64,000 nucleotides of DNA from Pseudomonadota bacterium (GTDB lineage Bacteria > Pseudomonadota > Gammaproteobacteria > Burkholderiales > JABEVD01), in NCBI GenBank assembly GCA_021835845.1, contig JAKBJU010000008.1:1-64000 (forward strand). The letters run 5' to 3'. Each line of letters begins with the position of its first letter. Position 1 is the first letter of the stretch. The notes beneath the pieces are model-generated. The model had not been told where the DNA came from. It saw nothing but the letters and a program-made list of their open reading frames with translations, and searched no databases. Of this stretch, positions 37,016 through 45,994 are shown one piece after another. The translations under genes and the position numbers were made by a program.

Positions 37016-37933
37016 TTAAATTAGGGAAATGGAGGCGGTTCCGAGTTTTTTCGTCAGCATGCCCGCATCCGCTGTTTCACCGTCGATTTCGAAAGACACC
37101 AGCCTCAGTACGCCGCCACCGCCGCAGTCGGCATAGCAGCGTCCGTTCTCGCAATAGAGGAAGGGGCGGTCAGAACGAGGGGGGCGGCTTTCGACGAGTG
37201 TTCTGAAGAGGCTCAGCTTCATGCCTCCGATGGGGGAAAACGCGCCGGGATAGGGCGGCGCGACCGCCCGCACCAGATTGTGGATGGATTGTGCAGATTC
37301 AAGCCAGTTTATTTTTCCATCCTGGGCGCTGCGCCCGCCGAAATAGCCGCCCAGACTGAGATCCTGCTTATGAAAGGCCGCATTGCCGGATACGAGTTTC
37401 GGCAAAGCCCGGTGCAGGGTGATTTCCGCTGCGCAGGTCACCTTCTTGAAAACCTCGGCTGCAGTGTCGTTTGGCAGAATGGGAATCGCGCTCTGATCGA
37501 CGATGTCTCCGTTGTCGGGTTTCTCGGTCATCCTGTGCAACGTCGCGCCTGTTTCCGTTTCGCCCTTGATGATTGCCCAGTTGACCGGCACTCTGCCCCG
37601 GTATTTGGGAAGAAGCGAGCCGTGCATGTTGTAGGCGCCGTGCTTGGGAAGGGCGAGCAGTTCCGCCTTCAGCATCAGCCGGTAATAGAACGAGAATATG
37701 AAATCGGGGTGCAAGGCGGCGACAGCGTCGATCACCTCCGGCGTGTTGGGGTCGACTGGTTTGATGACGGGGATGTCGTGCAGCGCGGCGAGCTCCGCCA
37801 GGCTTTCGAACCAGATCGACTCATCGGGATTGTCTTCGTGCGTGACAACGAGGGCTACGTCGACATTTTGGGCGAGCAGCACCTGAAGGCAGCGCACCCC
37901 CACGTCGTGATAGCCGAAGACGACTGCGCGCAT
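37016..37933 (-). CDS. arnA: UDP-Ara4N formyltransferase (ArnA N-terminal function as a separate protein)
   Basis: 305 aa, start at 37933 sharing one base with the arnC stop. It has the formyl-transferase fold: VVFGYHDVGVRCLQVLL at the N-terminus, the catalytic YNMHGSLLPKYRGRVPVNWAI (Asn and His) and KPDNGDIVDQ (Asp), with an OB-like C-terminal domain. It formylates UDP-L-Ara4N using formyl-tetrahydrofolate. The full-length separation from the decarboxylase shows a two-gene ArnA. Confidence 0.93.
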   Translation of the reverse strand: MRAVVFGYHDVGVRCLQVLLAQNVDVALVVTHEDNPDESIWFESLAELAALHDIPVIKPVDPNTPEVIDAVAALHPDFIFSFYYRLMLKAELLALPKHGAYNMHGSLLPKYRGRVPVNWAIIKGETETGATLHRMTEKPDNGDIVDQSAIPILPNDTAAEVFKKVTCAAEITLHRALPKLVSGNAAFHKQDLSLGGYFGGRSAQDGKINWLESAQSIHNLVRAVAPPYPGAFSPIGGMKLSLFRTLVESRPPRSDRPFLYCENGRCYADCGGGGVLRLVSFEIDGETADAGMLTKKLGTASISLI

Positions 37934-38865
37934 TACGCTTTTCCTTCCAGGATCGCCTCGATCAGGTATCTCGGCCTGTGCCGCACTTCCTGATAGATCC
38001 TGCCGACATATTCGCCCAGGATGCCGATTCCGAACAGGATGATGCCGATGAAGAAGAAAACGATGCCGAAGAGGGTGAACACGCCTTGCACTTCAGGACC
38101 CACGATAAGGCGCCGGACGGCAAGGTAGATGACGAACAGCGTCGAAAGCAGGGATATCAGGATGCCGGAAAGGGAAAACACCTGGAGCGGGACGACCGAA
38201 AATCCCGTCATGAGATCGAAATTGAGCCGGATCAGGCTGTAGAGCGAATATTTCGATTCTCCTGCGGTCCGCTCCTCGTGCTCGACCTCGATCTCGGTCG
38301 GGTTGCTCGCGAAGGTATAGGCGAGCGCAGGAATGAAGGTGTTGATTTCGCGTGCGGAATTGATCGCATCGATGATGCTGCGGCTGTAGGCGCGCAGCAT
38401 GCATCCCTGATCGGTCATCCTGATTTTGGTGATGCGCTCCCGCAGGCGGTTCATCATGCGCGATGCAATGCTGCGCCACAGATCGTCCTGGCGATTCTTC
38501 CTGATCGAACCGACATAGTCGTAGCCTTCGTCCATCTTCTCCAGAAGCGTGCCTATTTCCTCGGGGGGGTTCTGCAGATCCGCATCCAGGGTGACGATAT
38601 ATTTTCCCCGCACCTGCTCGAATCCGGCCATGATGGCCATATGCTGCCCGAAATTGCCCTTGAGCAGGACGACGCGGGTCACATCCCGGCGCGCTTCAAA
38701 CTGGTCCTTCAGGAGCATTGCCGAGCGATCCCGGCTGCCATCGTTGATGAAGATGATTTCATAGGGTCTGCCCAGCGCATCGAGGGCGGGGTAGAGCCTG
38801 TCGAACAGGGACTGGAGCCCCTGTTCCTCGTTGTAGACGGGGATGATGACGGAGACTTCGATCAT
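37933..38865 (-). CDS. arnC: undecaprenyl-phosphate 4-deoxy-4-formamido-L-arabinose transferase
   Basis: 310 aa from MIEVSVIIPVYNEE; the ATG at 38863-38865 overlaps the arnB stop, and a longer frame to 38895 is a shadow. GT2 glycosyltransferase with VTLDADLQNPPEE (metal-binding DAD-type motif), MTDQGCMLRAYSR and two C-terminal membrane spans. It loads the formylated sugar on undecaprenyl phosphate at the inner membrane. Confidence 0.96.
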   Translation of the reverse strand: MIEVSVIIPVYNEEQGLQSLFDRLYPALDALGRPYEIIFINDGSRDRSAMLLKDQFEARRDVTRVVLLKGNFGQHMAIMAGFEQVRGKYIVTLDADLQNPPEEIGTLLEKMDEGYDYVGSIRKNRQDDLWRSIASRMMNRLRERITKIRMTDQGCMLRAYSRSIIDAINSAREINTFIPALAYTFASNPTEIEVEHEERTAGESKYSLYSLIRLNFDLMTGFSVVPLQVFSLSGILISLLSTLFVIYLAVRRLIVGPEVQGVFTLFGIVFFFIGIILFGIGILGEYVGRIYQEVRHRPRYLIEAILEGKA

Positions 38866-39971
38866 GTTCTGATGATCCCGGCAGTTGCGTGGCATACCCT
38901 TTCGACGTCATCGAGAGACATCATGGGAAACAGGGGCAGGGTCACGGTTTCGCGTCCGATGCGCTCGGCATTGGGAAAGTCGCCCTCCTTGTATCCCAGT
39001 TTGAGGTAAAGGCTGAAGAGGTGCAGGGCGGGATAATGGATGCCGACGCCGATGGCTTGTTCGTGCATTTTTCCGATGAATGCTTTTCTGTCAAGATTCA
39101 TGCCTTCGAAAGGAATCAACGGGGCGAACATGTGCCAGCTGTGGCCTTCCCCTTTCGCGGGCAGCAGGCAGCCATCGATAGCCCAGCAATCGAAATAATG
39201 CTCGGCGAGAAGCCTGCGCTTTTCATTGAATGCATCCAGATGCGCGAGTTGCCCGACGCCGACTCTGGCGGCGACATCGGAAAGGTTGTATTTTCCTCCG
39301 GGAACCACGACATCCTGGTTCCCTTCACCGTCTTTCACGATGCCGTGAAAGCGCAGTTGATCCAGTTTCCTTGCCTCTTCCGGATCGGCAAGACTCAGCG
39401 CGCCGCCTTCTATGGTGGTCATGTTCTTGTTGGGATGGAAGCTGAACGACACGATGTCGCCGAAACTGCCGATTTTTCGGCCTTGCCAGGATGTTCCGAT
39501 TGCATGCGCGGCATCCTCGATCACTCTGAGCTCATGCCTTCTGGCAATATCGTAGAGCCTGTCGCAGTCGACGGCGAGGCCCGCGAAATGCACCGGCATG
39601 ATGGCGCGGGTTCTGGAAGTGATGGCGCGCTCGACCTGATCGAGGTCGATGTTGCGCGTAGCGATGTCGACATCGACGAAAACCGGCTTCGCGCCGACCC
39701 GCATGATCACATTGGGGGTGGCGGTGAAGCTCATGGCCGGCGTGATGACTTCGTCTCCGGGGCCGATTCCGCAAACCTCGAGCGCAACTTCGAGTGCGCC
39801 GGTTGCGGAAGTGAAGCTTTTCACGATGCGCCCGCCCAGATATTCGGAAAGTTTCGATTCGAATTCGGCGACGTTGGGCCCGCTTGCGAGCCATCCCGAG
39901 CGCAACACCTCCGCAACGCCCTGTATCGTCGCGTCGTCCAGGAAAGGTTTTGTGAATGGCAAATATTCCAT
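38862..39971 (-). CDS. arnB: UDP-4-amino-4-deoxy-L-arabinose aminotransferase
   Basis: 369 aa PLP-dependent DegT/DnrJ/EryC1 family enzyme. Key features: GPNVAEFESKLSEYLG, EDAAHAIGTSWQGRKIG with the Asp that contacts the cofactor, and SFHPNKNMTTIEGG with the PLP-binding Lys. It transfers an amino group from glutamate to UDP-4-ketopentose. A 38-bp gap separates it from the arnE/F-like gene and contains a TATAAT, so part of the operon may have an internal promoter. Confidence 0.96.
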   Translation of the reverse strand: MEYLPFTKPFLDDATIQGVAEVLRSGWLASGPNVAEFESKLSEYLGGRIVKSFTSATGALEVALEVCGIGPGDEVITPAMSFTATPNVIMRVGAKPVFVDVDIATRNIDLDQVERAITSRTRAIMPVHFAGLAVDCDRLYDIARRHELRVIEDAAHAIGTSWQGRKIGSFGDIVSFSFHPNKNMTTIEGGALSLADPEEARKLDQLRFHGIVKDGEGNQDVVVPGGKYNLSDVAARVGVGQLAHLDAFNEKRRLLAEHYFDCWAIDGCLLPAKGEGHSWHMFAPLIPFEGMNLDRKAFIGKMHEQAIGVGIHYPALHLFSLYLKLGYKEGDFPNAERIGRETVTLPLFPMMSLDDVERVCHATAGIIRT

Positions 39972-39982
39972 TTTATCAATTA

Positions 39983-39988
39983 ATTATA
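39983..39988 (-). promoter_or_regulatory. possible internal -10 box before arnB
   Basis: Bottom-strand TATAAT 11 bp upstream of the arnB ATG, in a very AT-rich 38-bp gap. TTGACA occurs only 9 bp further up, too close for a normal pair. The short distance to the start codon would mean a nearly leaderless message, so this is weak. Confidence 0.25.
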
Positions 39989-40009
39989 AAACAATCATGT
40001 CAATCAACA

Positions 40010-40381
40010 TTAGCTTCGCGAAACGATATAAACGCCGATGATGATGATCCCTATGCCTAAAAGCCGCGATATCGAAAGATTTTCGCCGAAAAGGTACCAG
40101 GCGGCGAATGCATTGACCACATAGCCGATGGAGAGCATCGGGTAGGCGATGCTGACTTCGACCCTGGATAATGCCATGATCCACACGATCACGGATATGC
40201 CATAGCAGGCGAGCCCCCCGATGATCGGGGGCTGGGTGGCGATCTGCCAGCCTATGGGCAGGATGTTGCCCCTGCTGAAAGCGAAAGTGCCCACGGCATT
40301 GGTTCCTGCCTTGAGCAGCAATTGCGCTGCCGCATTGAGCAGCACGCCGGTGAGTATCAATAGAAAACTGGTCGGATTCAT
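40010..40381 (-). CDS. ArnE/ArnF-like small EamA membrane protein
   Basis: 123 aa with four predicted membrane spans and SMR/EamA character (GVLLNAAAQLLLKAGT, MALSRVEVSIAYPMLSIGYV, LGIGIIIIGVYIVS). In enterobacteria ArnE and ArnF form a heterodimer that flips undecaprenyl-phosphate-Ara4N to the periplasm. Only one such gene is present here, so it would act as a homodimer or pair with a protein elsewhere. Its start overlaps the arnT stop. Confidence 0.9.
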   Translation of the reverse strand: MNPTSFLLILTGVLLNAAAQLLLKAGTNAVGTFAFSRGNILPIGWQIATQPPIIGGLACYGISVIVWIMALSRVEVSIAYPMLSIGYVVNAFAAWYLFGENLSISRLLGIGIIIIGVYIVSRS

Positions 40382-42012
40382 GGGGTTTTCACTACGACGC
40401 GCCTCGTGTCCTGTGCGATGAGCTGCATGGGCAGCTGATTTTCAAGCTGAGCGTACAGTTGAGGCGTCATGATTGCAAGCGCATAGGGCTGTTTTTTCCA
40501 GATGGTTTCGAAGGATTTGATGTCCGGAATCCATTTTTGCGGCTCCTGCTCGATGCCGAAAGCCATTTCATCCTGGTAGGCGACCAGGGTGACGGTGCGC
40601 TTGATGTAGAAGGGGAGGGTCTGCTCGTACATGGCGACGCTGTAAAAAGGCGCGCCGTCTTTCAGATAGGGCTTGATTTTCTGGGCGAGATAATAGGCCG
40701 AATTCGAAGGGGCGAGGCTGTTGTGCCCGGCCAGGATCAACTGGCTGCAAATCAGCATCGACAGGGACATGGCGATGATCGCATTTCTTTTTGCGTTGCG
40801 GCGGCTCTGATATGCCGCATAAATCGCGCCGATCAGGGCAGTCGCAGAAGCCCCCTCAAGCCAGGGAACATAATTGCGGTAGAGCGCAACCGGTACGATG
40901 GGATCGGCAAGGCGGACGGCTTCCGGAGAAAGGAAAAGTCCTGCTGCGCCAATCACCGCGATGGGCATGAAATGCCAGAGCAGCCTGCGCCCGTCCATTT
41001 CGGAAAGCCGGTTGCCAATGAGCAGCGCCAGAGCCGGAAAAATCGGCAGGATGTAGGAAGGAAGCTTCGAATCGGATATGGAAAAAAAGAAATAAATGAA
41101 GGCAATCCAGACGAACAGGAAGCGCCCTGGCTGGAATTCCCGGCCATTGCCCGTTGCCTTCATCGATCCGAAAAAGGATGGGAAAAGTGCGCCGATCCAG
41201 GGCAGCATGCCCGCCAGGAGAATCGGGACGAAGTAATACCAGGGGTGGTAGCGCCCGTGTTCCTTGGTCAGGAAGCGCTCGAAATGCTCATGGATGAAGA
41301 AGAAATGGAAAAATTCCGGGTTCGCCTTGCAGACTGCGATGAACCAGGGTGCGCTGATCAACAGCATCAGAAGGATGCCTGTAGGCAGATTGATCCGCTT
41401 CCAGATTTCCCAATCGCGCTGCCATAGCGTGTAGAGCACGAGCACCGCCCCCGGCAGGACAATGCCGATCAATCCCTTGCTCAGGATGGAGAATCCCATT
41501 GCAGCCCAGGCGACGTGCATCCAGAATTTTCTCTGCAGGGGGGCGGCCTGGGCGAGCAGGAAGCCGGACAGGCTGAGGCTCATGAAGAATGTGACCCCCA
41601 TGTCTAGCGTATTGATGTGGCCTATCACGGCATAAAGCGCGCTGCTCGCCAGGACGAGCGCGGAATAGAATCCGGCTTCGACCCCGAACAGGCGCCTGCC
41701 GGTGAGATAGGTCAGCAATATGCCGAGAAAGCCGGTCAGGCCGCTCCACAGCCTTGCCGTCCATTGATGTTCGCCGAAGAGCTCGTATGCTGCCGCAGTC
41801 ATCCAGTACTGCAATGCGGGCTTCTCGAAGTATTTGAGGCCATTGAGGCGCGGCGTCACCCAATCGCCTGTGGCCACCATTTCTCTCGATATCTCCGCAT
41901 AGCGCCCCTCGTCGGGTCTGACGAGCTTGCGGTAATCCAGATTGCCGAACCAGACCAGTGCGACCAGTGCGAAAATCCAGAAGACGTGATTGCGTTTGAT
42001 TGCGTTGGGCAT
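40378..42012 (-). CDS. arnT: lipid A 4-amino-4-deoxy-L-arabinose transferase
   Basis: 544 aa from MPNAIKRNHVFWIF. The upstream ATG at 42051 is rejected because it lies about 10 bases from the -10 box at 42060-42065. It is a GT83 family polytopic glycosyltransferase with 12 or more hydrophobic helices; the periplasmic first loop RPDEGRYAEISREMVATGDWVTP holds the Asp-Glu pair characteristic of ArnT/PMT enzymes, and ISDSKLPSYILPIFPALALL is typical. It moves L-Ara4N to lipid A phosphates, lowering negative charge and giving resistance to cationic peptides. Confidence 0.95.
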   Translation of the reverse strand: MPNAIKRNHVFWIFALVALVWFGNLDYRKLVRPDEGRYAEISREMVATGDWVTPRLNGLKYFEKPALQYWMTAAAYELFGEHQWTARLWSGLTGFLGILLTYLTGRRLFGVEAGFYSALVLASSALYAVIGHINTLDMGVTFFMSLSLSGFLLAQAAPLQRKFWMHVAWAAMGFSILSKGLIGIVLPGAVLVLYTLWQRDWEIWKRINLPTGILLMLLISAPWFIAVCKANPEFFHFFFIHEHFERFLTKEHGRYHPWYYFVPILLAGMLPWIGALFPSFFGSMKATGNGREFQPGRFLFVWIAFIYFFFSISDSKLPSYILPIFPALALLIGNRLSEMDGRRLLWHFMPIAVIGAAGLFLSPEAVRLADPIVPVALYRNYVPWLEGASATALIGAIYAAYQSRRNAKRNAIIAMSLSMLICSQLILAGHNSLAPSNSAYYLAQKIKPYLKDGAPFYSVAMYEQTLPFYIKRTVTLVAYQDEMAFGIEQEPQKWIPDIKSFETIWKKQPYALAIMTPQLYAQLENQLPMQLIAQDTRRVVVKTP

Positions 42013-42059
42013 GGGCAGGCTGGATTTCGCTTTCCGGGGTGTTCGCGGCAAATTTCGCG

Positions 42060-42080: not shown

Positions 42081-43127
42081 TTAATCAGCCCGAATCTTCC
42101 CTGCAAGGGCCGTGAATGCCGATTCTTCGGAAGAGGGAACTTCGATAACGGATATCTCGGCATACTTCTGGTAGTGCTTCTCGATGGATTTCCGGTAGGC
42201 CGGATCGTAATGCTTATCGAGAAGCGATGCGACGAGATTGTCCCAATCGCAGCGATCGATCATTGCTTTCCATGATTCGATCGTTTCTCCCCCATGCAGC
42301 GGAGCGAGGCAATCCAGTTTTTCGAGGAGGGCTTCCGGCTGGCTGAAAAAATGCCGGTAATCTTCCGCGAGGATACTATTCCTGACCGTGATCCCCGCAT
42401 CCAGGCGGATGCAGCGGCTTTTCCACATGGCTTCCATGAGCGCTTGGGGTACGCGCAAGCTCCCGATTTTCTTGCTTTCCGATTCGAGGTAAACGGGCCT
42501 TGCCGGGTCGAATCCTGAAAGCATCGAGCAGATGCAGCTCTCGAAATATTTCTGGCTTGGCTGTTCCAGCCCCGGCATTTTCCCCAGCACGGAACCTCTG
42601 TGGCGTGCGATTTCTTCAAGGTTCAGCGTCTGTTCGCCCACTTTGGAGAGTGCGTCCAGAAGCCTGCTTTTGCCGCAGCCGGTCGGTCCGCAGATTACCC
42701 TGAACTCGAAGCGCCCGGGCAGAACTTCGAGCGCTTCTAGCACCATTTTCCGGTAAGCCTTGTATCCGCCTTCGAGTCTTGTGGTTTGCCAGCCGATCTC
42801 GGAAAGGATATGCGCCATGGCGCCGCTGCGTTTTCCGCCGCGCCAGCAATACACCAGCGGGCGCCATGTCTTGGGTTTGTCGATGAAGCTGTTCTCGAGA
42901 TGGCGGGCAATGTTGCGGGATACGATCGCCGCGCCGATTTTCTTCGCCAGGAAAGGGGATTCCTGTACATAAAGGGTGCCGACTCTGGCCCTTTCCTCGT
43001 CGTTCAGCACGGGATGGCTGGTTGCGCCGGGAATGTGATCGGCCTCGAATTCGGCAGGCGAGCGCACGTCGATGACCTCGTCAAATTCGGATAATTGTGC
43101 TAGGGTTGGGCTGCTCAGAATTTTCAA
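42081..43127 (-). CDS. mnmH: tRNA 2-selenouridine synthase
   Basis: 348 aa from a TTG at 43125-43127. An N-terminal rhodanese domain has the catalytic Cys94 in YCWRGGKRSGAM; a P-loop GPTGCGKS at 147-154 begins the C-terminal ATPase-like domain, followed by ARHRGSVLGKM and the conserved HYDPAYRKSIE. It geranylates and then selenates 2-thiouridine at the wobble base of Lys, Glu and Gln tRNAs, using selenophosphate from SelD, whose gene begins at the same base on the other strand. Confidence 0.96.
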   Translation of the reverse strand: MKILSSPTLAQLSEFDEVIDVRSPAEFEADHIPGATSHPVLNDEERARVGTLYVQESPFLAKKIGAAIVSRNIARHLENSFIDKPKTWRPLVYCWRGGKRSGAMAHILSEIGWQTTRLEGGYKAYRKMVLEALEVLPGRFEFRVICGPTGCGKSRLLDALSKVGEQTLNLEEIARHRGSVLGKMPGLEQPSQKYFESCICSMLSGFDPARPVYLESESKKIGSLRVPQALMEAMWKSRCIRLDAGITVRNSILAEDYRHFFSQPEALLEKLDCLAPLHGGETIESWKAMIDRCDWDNLVASLLDKHYDPAYRKSIEKHYQKYAEISVIEVPSSEESAFTALAGKIRAD

Positions 43128-44173
43128 TGAATCATCCGGAAATGCAAATTAAACTCACGAAATTCTCTCACGGAGGGGGATGCGGATGCAAAATCGCTCC
43201 TTCCCTGCTTCGCGAGCTCCTTTCCAAATCCTCCGCATTTTACCCTGATCTGCTGGTCGGCAAAGATTCGAGCGACGATGCGGCGGTGTATCGCATCAAC
43301 GACGATCAGGCGATCGTCGCAACGACCGATTTCTTCATGCCCATCGTGGACGATGCGCGGGATTTCGGGAGAATCGCGGCAACCAATGCCTTGTCCGATA
43401 TTTATGCGATGGGCGCAAGACCCGTCATGGCGCTTGCCATTGTCGGGATGCCCATAGACAAGCTTCCCGCCGAGACCATAAAGCAAATTCTGGATGGCGG
43501 AGAGTCGGTTTGCGCGCTTGCCGGCATTCCCGTGGCTGGCGGGCATTCGATCGATTCTCCCGAGCCCATCTATGGACTGGCCGTGATGGGCATCGTGCAC
43601 CCGGAGAAAATCAAGAGGAATGATCGCGCCAGGGCAGGGGACGTCCTGATCCTTGGCAAGGCGCTGGGCATCGGCATGCTGAGCGCCGCCCTCAAGAAAG
43701 GGGAACTGACCCGGGAAGGCTATCGAAGCATGCTGGCAAGCACAACGCAGCTCAATACGCCCGGGGTGCAGCTTGCCGAGATGGAAGGAGTGCATGCCCT
43801 GACCGATGTCACAGGCTTCGGTCTGCTTGGCCATCTTCTGGAAATTTGCCGCGGCTCAAGCCTTGGCGCCTCGATCGATTTCGATCGGGTTCCTGTTTTT
43901 CCCGAGGCGAAGCAGCTCTGCATGCGAGGCATTGCGCCAGGAGCAGTGGAGCGCAACTGGGCGAGCTTCGGAGAAGAAGTCGCCATCGATGGAGCGATCC
44001 TGGAATGGCAAAGGAAAATGCTCTGCGATCCTCAAACGAGCGGCGGATTGCTGGTGGCTTGCGCGCCTGAGGCGGAAAACGAGGTGCTCGAACTTTTCAG
44101 AACGAGCGGATTCGATCATGCCCGAAGGATAGGGCGCATGGTCGATGGCGAAGCGATGGTAAAAGTCGGCTAA
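43127..44173 (+). CDS. selD: selenophosphate synthetase (SelD)
   Basis: 348 aa from ATG 43127; ATG 43142 is a possible alternative and 43097 a less likely upstream start. It makes selenophosphate from selenide and ATP. The catalytic loop FSHGGGCGCKIAP carries Cys (TGC codons) where some bacteria use selenocysteine (TGA). DSSDDAAVYRI, TDFFMPIVDDARDFGRIAATNALSD and LTDVTGFGLLGH are the ATP/Mg-binding signatures, and CDPQTSGGLLVA ends the core. Its start shares one base with the divergent mnmH start. Confidence 0.97.
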   Translation: MNHPEMQIKLTKFSHGGGCGCKIAPSLLRELLSKSSAFYPDLLVGKDSSDDAAVYRINDDQAIVATTDFFMPIVDDARDFGRIAATNALSDIYAMGARPVMALAIVGMPIDKLPAETIKQILDGGESVCALAGIPVAGGHSIDSPEPIYGLAVMGIVHPEKIKRNDRARAGDVLILGKALGIGMLSAALKKGELTREGYRSMLASTTQLNTPGVQLAEMEGVHALTDVTGFGLLGHLLEICRGSSLGASIDFDRVPVFPEAKQLCMRGIAPGAVERNWASFGEEVAIDGAILEWQRKMLCDPQTSGGLLVACAPEAENEVLELFRTSGFDHARRIGRMVDGEAMVKVG

Positions 44174-44638
44174 ATGAAGTACCTGATTTTGCTCATCGCG
44201 CTGCTTGCCGCAGGATGCGGGGAGGTCCCGGTTCGGAAACAGGAAGCTGCCCCGCCTGCGACGGGGATGCGCGACGAGGTCGTGCTTTATGCGCTCGGAC
44301 TGATGGGGGTGGACTACCGCTTCGGGGGAAAGAACCCTTCGAGCGGCCTCGATTGCAGCGGCATGGTCAGCTACATCTACAAAAATGCAGTGGGCATGGA
44401 TTTGCCGCACAACGCTTCCAGGATCGAAAAGATGGCAAAAAGAATCGAACCTGCAGCGCTCAAACCGGGCGATCTGGTTTTTTTCGATACGCAGCACCGG
44501 CATTATTCCCATGTGGGGATCTATATTGGGAATGGCAGGTTTGTCCACGCGCCGGGAACCGATGGGAAAATCAAGATCAGCAACCTCTCTTCCAGCTATT
44601 TTGCAAGAAGATTCGATGGCGCAGGCACATTATTCTAG
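44174..44638 (+). CDS. NlpC/P60 family lipoprotein endopeptidase
   Basis: 154 aa starting at the base after the selD stop. The signal peptide ends in LLAAGC, with Cys15 as the lipidation site. The NlpC/P60 papain-like domain has Cys61 in GLDCSGMVSYIY, His113 in YSHVGIYIGN and His125 in FVHAPG as the catalytic triad. It would cleave D-gamma-glutamyl-diaminopimelate bonds in peptidoglycan stems. As a lipoprotein it is probably tethered to the outer membrane. Confidence 0.94.
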   Translation: MKYLILLIALLAAGCGEVPVRKQEAAPPATGMRDEVVLYALGLMGVDYRFGGKNPSSGLDCSGMVSYIYKNAVGMDLPHNASRIEKMAKRIEPAALKPGDLVFFDTQHRHYSHVGIYIGNGRFVHAPGTDGKIKISNLSSSYFARRFDGAGTLF

Positions 44639-44641
44639 GAA

Positions 44642-45994
44642 ATGACCGTGGTCAAAACAATACGTGATCGCGCCAACTGGCTCGCCCAGGTCAGCTACGT
44701 CACATTGAATCTGTTTCTCAAATCGAAAGTGCCCAATCATGCTGCAGCGGTAGCCTATTACGCCCTGCTTTCCCTCGCCCCCCTTATGGTGCTGCTCGTT
44801 TACCTGCTCAATACCTACCTGCAGAATTATCCTGAGCTCAGGGAAGCATTCGGCACGCTTGTCGGGCGGGCTCATCTCGATATTTTCAGTCAGAATCCGG
44901 ACCAGATAATCCGTGCCGTTTCCAGCCTGGTGGGCATCACCAATGGGCTGGGAATACTGCTGCTGCTATGGAGTTCCAAGGGGTTGATGAAATCGGTGCA
45001 TAATGCGTTCGCAGTCATTTTCACGGATTCGAGCAGACGCAACCTGGTCCTCTCCAGCCTCATTTCGCTGATGTCCATCCCGTTCATTTTTCTGCTGCTG
45101 GGAATCACCGTTCTCGGCGACTATCTGCTCAACCATTTCGATTACGCCGCGCTGGACCTGCCCATTCTCGGACAGTTGCTGAAGCTGTTCTTCGTGTCGA
45201 TAGGCTTGTTCACTCCCTTTATGGGAATATGGTCGGTCGTTTTTCTGCTCTATTTCCAGATGCCCCTGATCAGGCCGGAAATTCTGCCGACCCTGCTCTA
45301 CAGCCTGTTGTGCACATTGTCCCTGTATGCGCTGGAAGCGGTGCTCACTCATGTCGTGAAAATCAACAACTACATCACCCTTTACGGCTCGCTTGGCGAC
45401 ATCATTTTCGTGCTGATCTGGGTCTACCTGGCCTGCATCCTTTTTTTCATGTGGGCGGAATTCCTTTATGTGGCCGGGAAGATCGATGTTGTCGCCCTGG
45501 AGAAGATTTTCCTGGACAGCGAAGACCGCAGCAGGCTGGAGTTCCGGATAGAGCATTTTCTTTTCAATCGATCCGGCAGGATCTTCGAGAAGTACGGCAA
45601 GCATTGCGTCAAGGGGGAGATGATCATCAGGCAGAACGACGATACCGGATCGATCTACTTTCTGTACTCGGGGCAGGTCGGGCTGTATCGTGAGAATCAT
45701 GGCAAGGAAATCAGGATGGGAGGATTGAGAGAGGGCGAGATATTCGGCGAAATGGCCTATCTTCTCGGGGAGCGCAGGACTGCGACAGTCATCGCCGAAT
45801 CGGATTGCTTCCTCTTCATCATTTCGCCGGAGACACTTGAGTCATTGATGGGCTACAGCTCGAAACTTTCCAGGAGGATCGTCGAGTCGCTTTGCCAGAG
45901 GATTGCCAAGATGAACAAGGGGATACTCGCTGCGGGATTCGAATCTTCAACTTACAAGCACCCGGCTTTCAAGCCGGAGGCCGGAACTGTCTGA
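44642..45994 (+). CDS. YihY/UPF0761 membrane protein fused to a cyclic-nucleotide-binding domain
   Basis: 450 aa. Residues about 1-290 are the YihY fold with six or so membrane helices: VPNHAAAVAYYALLSLAPLMVLL, LLLWSSKGLMKSVHNAF and YGSLGDIIFVLIWVYLACILFFMWAE. Residues about 305-430 are a cNMP-binding domain: GEMIIRQNDDTGSIYFLYSGQVGLY and the phosphate-binding cassette GEIFGEMAYLLGERRTATV, keeping the Glu and Arg that contact the cyclic phosphate. The YihY family has no settled function (the name RNase BN was an error). The last 43 bp overlap the convergent ABC gene. Confidence 0.93.
   Translation: MTVVKTIRDRANWLAQVSYVTLNLFLKSKVPNHAAAVAYYALLSLAPLMVLLVYLLNTYLQNYPELREAFGTLVGRAHLDIFSQNPDQIIRAVSSLVGITNGLGILLLLWSSKGLMKSVHNAFAVIFTDSSRRNLVLSSLISLMSIPFIFLLLGITVLGDYLLNHFDYAALDLPILGQLLKLFFVSIGLFTPFMGIWSVVFLLYFQMPLIRPEILPTLLYSLLCTLSLYALEAVLTHVVKINNYITLYGSLGDIIFVLIWVYLACILFFMWAEFLYVAGKIDVVALEKIFLDSEDRSRLEFRIEHFLFNRSGRIFEKYGKHCVKGEMIIRQNDDTGSIYFLYSGQVGLYRENHGKEIRMGGLREGEIFGEMAYLLGERRTATVIAESDCFLFIISPETLESLMGYSSKLSRRIVESLCQRIAKMNKGILAAGFESSTYKHPAFKPEAGTV

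Follow-up and report, generated by a model that had tools for sequence, protein, structure and literature searches.

The window, the whole analysed stretch of 64,000 nucleotides, contains a single intact open frame on the plus strand (44642-45994; ATG start, 450 amino acids plus stop) that joins a YihY/BrkB-family membrane domain to a cyclic nucleotide-binding domain (CNBD). The YihY/BrkB domain (PF03631) occupies residues 29-276 (44726-45469, plus strand) as judged by Pfam, hydropathy and structural models; the Virul_fac_BrkB match covers profile positions 4-253 of 259 and scores 95.8 bits (cut-off 33.7). Residues 298-426 (45533-45919, plus strand) form a helical linker and the CNBD, as delineated by Pfam, the model and PDB matches, and the Pfam core of the latter (cNMP_binding, PF00027) spans residues 322-403 (45605-45850, plus strand; profile positions 4-86 of 89, 71.9 bits, cut-off 27.5). 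Both domains are thus complete and score far above chance, which bears out the original prediction of a full YihY fold and a C-terminal CNBD within one 450-residue frame. In the Pfam search at E 0.01, no family other than these two was found in the protein. With 57.6 bits, it falls below the NCBIfam cut-off for TIGR00765 (yihY_not_rbn, 73.15 bits) and is accordingly filed under PF03631 only. By our reading, overlapping hydropathy stretches resolve into six hydrophobic segments in the YihY part, in agreement with the helices of the model, and both termini are predicted from hydropathy and charge to be cytoplasmic, the side where cyclic nucleotides are made.

The fusion gene is flanked by an NlpC/P60 peptidoglycan hydrolase gene (nlpC; 44174-44638, plus strand), which by our reading encodes a lipoprotein-like N-terminus, and by a gene for an ABC ATPase. 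The nlpC stop codon lies 3 nt before the fusion start, and nlpC is itself abutted by selD, encoding selenide water dikinase (43097-44173, plus strand; 532.8 bits, cut-off 299). Probably, the fusion belongs to one operon with nlpC and selD, which precede it. On the opposite strand lies a rhodanese-domain gene that we read as mnmH. This arrangement is conserved: nlpC adjoins the fusion in all seven orthologues (L029-L035), with gaps of 3-22 nt, and selD and mnmH are retained beside it in six of them, the seventh (L034) being cut by the contig end. In all three Deferribacterota loci checked out of five (L076, L077 and L079), a VanY-type D,D-carboxypeptidase gene is located directly upstream of the fusion. 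A peptidoglycan hydrolase gene thus immediately precedes the fusion in two distant lineages, whereas the flanking genes differ among the remaining loci viewed. A scan for promoters and terminators yielded little excess over shuffled sequences: it gave one promoter, where shuffles average 1.8, and six terminators, where they average 3.7 (sd 2.0). Elsewhere in the window (37933-42051, minus strand), genes for an ArnT C-terminal domain, a DegT aminotransferase, a family 2 glycosyltransferase and an EamA domain suggest an arn-type cluster, as we name it, for lipid A modification. A DUF1015 gene occurs near the fusion in a Thiobacillus locus (L054:4516-5763) and in a Deferribacterota locus (L076:2141-3394).

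Predicted structure and known relatives

The full-length model, built from 49 sequences, has a mean pLDDT of 75.6 and a pTM of 0.73. In this model, TM6 continues as one long helix (residues 241-290) followed by two short helices and then the beta barrel, with the join at residues 290-310 poorly predicted. The modelled CNBD superimposes on cAMP-bound Vfr with a Z-score of 17.2 (rmsd 1.8 over 111 residues) and is nearly as close to FNR (Z 16.4) and NtcA (Z 15.6), folds with other ligands. The model thus predicts a CRP/Vfr-like CNBD that sits on a long extension of TM6. By Foldseek E-value, the top match is SthK (1.2e-7), with a whole-chain TM-score of 0.22 and an rmsd of 25.5, so the likeness is confined to the CNBD. 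The YihY part modelled alone (44642-45511) reached a pLDDT of 80.5 and produced no Foldseek match in the PDB at E 0.001 or better; a sequence search for a solved relative of this part returned a single match, at E 0.93. In VIA-align 2, structures of choline-transporter-like proteins came first for the YihY part (PNS1, Z 7.4, rmsd 6.6 over 247 residues; CTL1, Z 6.1 and 5.9) and made up three of the top six rows, at scores below the level at which helical models can be trusted.

The protein shares the complete membrane domain and the predicted cytoplasmic C-terminus with the YihY/BrkB/YhjD family (PF03631; TIGR00765, TIGR00766, PRK04214) and differs from the canonical YihY of its own genome in carrying the CNBD in place of another C-terminal extension. 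Its layout resembles that of SthK in that the membrane domain precedes a CNBD on the cytoplasmic side, whose phosphate-binding cassette is canonical; MlotiK1 is a cyclic nucleotide-gated membrane protein of the same kind. Unlike in such gated channels, however, the membrane part is a YihY domain, and no channel domain or pore family was detected by Pfam. The CNBD fold and the cassette are common to the CRP and Vfr transcription factors, whereas the fusion, in contrast to CRP/FNR regulators, is membrane-bound and has no helix-turn-helix or other DNA-binding family in the Pfam search.

None of the 10 NCBIfam families matched at E 1e-5 by the 49 family members scanned models YihY and CNBD together; the YhjD model was matched by six of the 49. 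A search of the open-access literature for YihY, BrkB or ribonuclease BN combined with cyclic nucleotide terms retrieved no paper, nor did a survey-type search, in line with the novelty claimed in the original prediction. Table 1 of Kannan et al. 2007 (PMC2246266) describes 30 families without naming YihY or BrkB for any of them, and the main text mentions neither. The membrane family and the sensor domain are each known; for the two combined, the open-access literature searched yielded no paper.

Distribution and descent of the fusion

Three YihY matches occur in the genome that carries the window gene (2.2 Mb in 32 contigs). Besides the window gene itself, they are a canonical protein (391-residue frame whose C-terminal extension is of another kind) and a further fusion with 45% identity to the window protein. 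Fusions are present in all nine genomes of the genus, the sole genus of its family in the sample. Orthologues of the same layout, 64-97% identical, were found in seven of the eight other genus genomes, and the eighth has fusions at 44-48% identity. Across the order, at least 18 of 300 genomes, the nine genus genomes included, encode a fusion; in the phylum sample, there were matches in at least 38 of 398 genomes, four of which (G000, G050, G331 and G033) were seen to span both domains. Both counts are lower bounds, as these searches scored up to 4 or 5 candidates per genome. Two peptide patterns run over the genome collection retrieved 72 loci, 54 of which (L029-L082) are fusions or pieces of fusions from Betaproteobacteria (Gallionella, Thiobacillus, Hydrogenophilus, Parasulfuritortus and further MAGs), Deferribacterota and Spirochaetota. 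In the genomes searched, the YihY-CNBD combination, for which the original prediction proposed a survey of domain architectures, thus occurs in the entire genus, in other Betaproteobacteria and in two further phyla. Of 50 Deferribacterota genomes, 39 have a match. YihY/BrkB is present in 10 of 14 control genomes.

The fusion is apparently often the only YihY of its host. Among the 31 genomes reached through the pattern loci, which are mostly MAGs so that genes may be missing, 23 have exactly one YihY match. We take this match to be the fusion because 22 of the 23 are represented in the alignment, whose 49 scanned members all match both domain models, and the remaining one (L051, Parasulfuritortus cantonensis) has an intact 441-residue fusion frame with the cassette Glu and Arg.

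A 61-row tree built on the YihY part separates 52 main fusions from seven canonical YihY by a branch with support 100/99. As the tree is rooted at its midpoint, includes only these seven canonical sequences and has several long branches, it does not prove that the fusions arose once. Two fusions, L166 and L167 (from G331 and G033), lie nearer the canonical YihY, on long branches, and from their placement may represent a second, independent origin.

The phosphate-binding cassette

The cassette of the window protein is canonical (FGEMAYLLGERRTATV). Residues 365-383 (45734-45790, plus strand) read GEIFGEMAYLLGERRTATV, the string quoted in the original prediction, and the Glu and Arg named there are indeed in place: E370 (45749-45751) and R379 (45776-45778) occupy the cassette Glu and Arg positions, spaced as in GEMALLDGEPRSATVVA, the consensus that Kannan et al. 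2007 (PMC2246266) give for bacteria.

Conservation of these residues was assessed in two sets. Among 54 fusion rows, a set biased in that one of the two fetching peptide patterns is the cassette itself, E370 is present in all and R379 in 50; this count omits two near-copies (L030 and L064), a cut locus (L070), one broken by Ns (L063) and L051, which together have Glu in five of five and Arg in four of five, L063 being the one without. The set obtained by a whole-protein search, which is free of this bias, has both residues at all nine loci of the order outside the genus and at 16 of 21 genus loci. Against seven fusions from Deferribacterota and Spirochaetota, a set fetched in part by the cassette, mean identity is 70% within the cassette and 23-29% over the rest of the protein.

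The four Arg losses among the 54 rows make up one clade (support 100/97), which also carries an A372 to D replacement and includes the second fusion of the same genome (L020, G000:C26:78284-79516), with the cassette FGEIDYLLGASASATF. This Arg-less paralogue offers a natural negative control. Losses are more extensive in Deferribacterota, where 11 of 39 hits show both Glu and Arg. Another 14 retain a CNBD that lacks the Arg at its position, in 12 a cassette is no longer recognisable, and two are cut or broken before reaching it. Taken together, 26 of the 39 matching genomes have a degenerate or missing ligand site. The Deferribacterota loci L183-L216 form a graded series from intact through Arg-less to eroded CNBDs on YihY, a natural record of ligand-site loss.

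The original prediction had named orthologues lacking the Glu or Arg as a finding that would refute it. The strict orthologues keep both residues, in seven of seven cases, and in this respect agree with the prediction; the paralogue in the same genome and most Deferribacterota copies do not, having lost the Arg or the whole cassette. The ligand site is therefore kept in the lineage of the window gene, yet it is not universal; a domain that has lost it must either function in another way or be on its way to decay. According to Kannan et al. 2007 (PMC2246266), a Gly in the beta2-beta3 loop co-evolves with the cassette Arg. By eye, this Gly is present in the window protein (G336) and absent from many fusions.

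A putative cyclic nucleotide switch and its alternatives

If the CNBD binds a cyclic nucleotide, cAMP is the likeliest ligand, given the catalytic residues of the best class III cyclase (PF00211) in the same genome: as read from its sequence, this enzyme has what we take to be the two metal-binding Asp, together with Lys, Asn and Arg at catalytic places. The genome has seven class III cyclase matches, three of them strong, and at least two other proteins that combine a CNBD with a Crp-type helix-turn-helix in one frame, so that cAMP would have further readers. c-di-GMP is, to our knowledge, not an expected ligand of the CNBD fold. Above the cut-off, a class III cyclase was detected in all 18 fusion genomes of the order sample and in 30 of the 31 other fusion genomes, that is, in 48 of 49 when the two sets are taken as distinct, in view of the differing lengths of their fusion contigs; the exception is G322, in which there was no class III cyclase match. 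Among order genomes that lack the fusion, 192 of 282 have such a match, and in the order sample overall 210 of 300. The co-occurrence of fusion and cyclase is suggestive, but the fusion genomes come from few lineages; in one genome with an intact orthologue (G006), the only cyclase matches are weak (27.1 and 23.3 bits, cut-off 21.9).

Sequence and models show a YihY/BrkB-family inner-membrane protein with a C-terminal cytoplasmic CNBD. We give a probability of about 0.5 to the reading that binding of a cAMP-type ligand to this CNBD would switch an envelope function. The ligand, most likely cAMP, would bind at E370 and R379; the ligand-bound CNBD would close, and its movement would pass through the linker helices to TM6 and thereby switch what YihY does in the envelope. 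The controlled activity could be the handling or export of LPS or other lipids at the inner membrane, if E. coli YhjD is a guide. According to PMC3219608, E. coli YhjD binds rough LPS and co-purifies with LptB, and strains without YhjD accumulate lipid A precursors; the suppressor work of Mamat 2008 is cited there. Together with the YhjD model matches among the fusions, these data make LPS or lipid handling, purely by analogy, our first candidate for the activity under control. The more specific proposal, that cAMP directly gates LPS or lipid handling in a scattered, old YihY class with a co-transcribed peptidoglycan hydrolase, the Arg-less paralogues being ligand-independent, is one that we advance tentatively and regard as rather improbable in its entirety.

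A competing possibility, on the improbable side as well, is that the CNBD serves structure or oligomerisation, or acts as a sensor of something other than a cyclic nucleotide, with the cassette of the window clade persisting as an ancestral remnant or for folding. The fold does persist without the Arg in the paralogue clade of the same genome and in the 14 Arg-less Deferribacterota hits, and the close match of the model to FNR and NtcA would suit a different ligand. A purely structural role, however, sits poorly with retention of the cassette, Arg included, in all seven orthologues and at all nine order loci outside the genus, and the clade that lost the Arg also acquired the A372D change, as expected from released selection rather than from a folding need.

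The resemblance of the CNBD to PycTIR (E 6.9e-14) and the class III cyclases located about 5-6 kb away in three lineages evoke a cyclic nucleotide-triggered membrane effector of anti-phage defence, akin to the Pycsar TM effectors. This assignment seems very unlikely: no pyrimidine cyclase (PycC) gene adjoins the fusion, the adjacent genes being nlpC and the ABC ATPase gene; PADLOC gave no hit among the three window neighbours tested; and the fusion shares a conserved gene order with selD and nlpC and is the sole YihY found in 23 of 31 genomes. The two nearby cyclases tested do match PycC, but any class III cyclase would presumably do so. That two genes were joined by chance or in assembly deserves practically no credence, considering that all 49 members scanned, drawn from three phyla, carry both domains in an uninterrupted frame. 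An assembly or annotation artefact is ruled out by the fusions in nine of nine genus genomes, by the same 49 members and by nlpC beside all seven orthologues.

Should the proposed cAMP-type switch operate, cytoplasmic second-messenger levels would control outer-membrane or cell-wall homeostasis without transcription, and where the fusion is the only YihY found, as in the 23 genomes, all YihY activity would come under this switch. We know of few non-transcriptional outputs of bacterial cAMP, to which envelope or lipid control would be added. YihY/BrkB proteins are widespread and poorly understood, and a ligand-switched branch would provide a handle on their role in the envelope.

The cyclases at about 5-6 kb from the fusion are those of G001/G007, G008 and G050/G262. 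Greater distances were recorded in G006 (23 kb, a weak match), G291 (25 kb) and G318 (27 kb); elsewhere, among contigs many of which are short, no cyclase was listed that near the fusion. We give little weight to the cyclase as a conserved neighbour, a pattern noticed after the fact and seen at close range in three lineages only. At locus L146 (G008:C40:62001-82000), the fusion lies near genes for STAS, HATPase-CNBD-SpoIIE and GAF-HD proteins and a class III cyclase, possibly a cyclic nucleotide signalling cluster.
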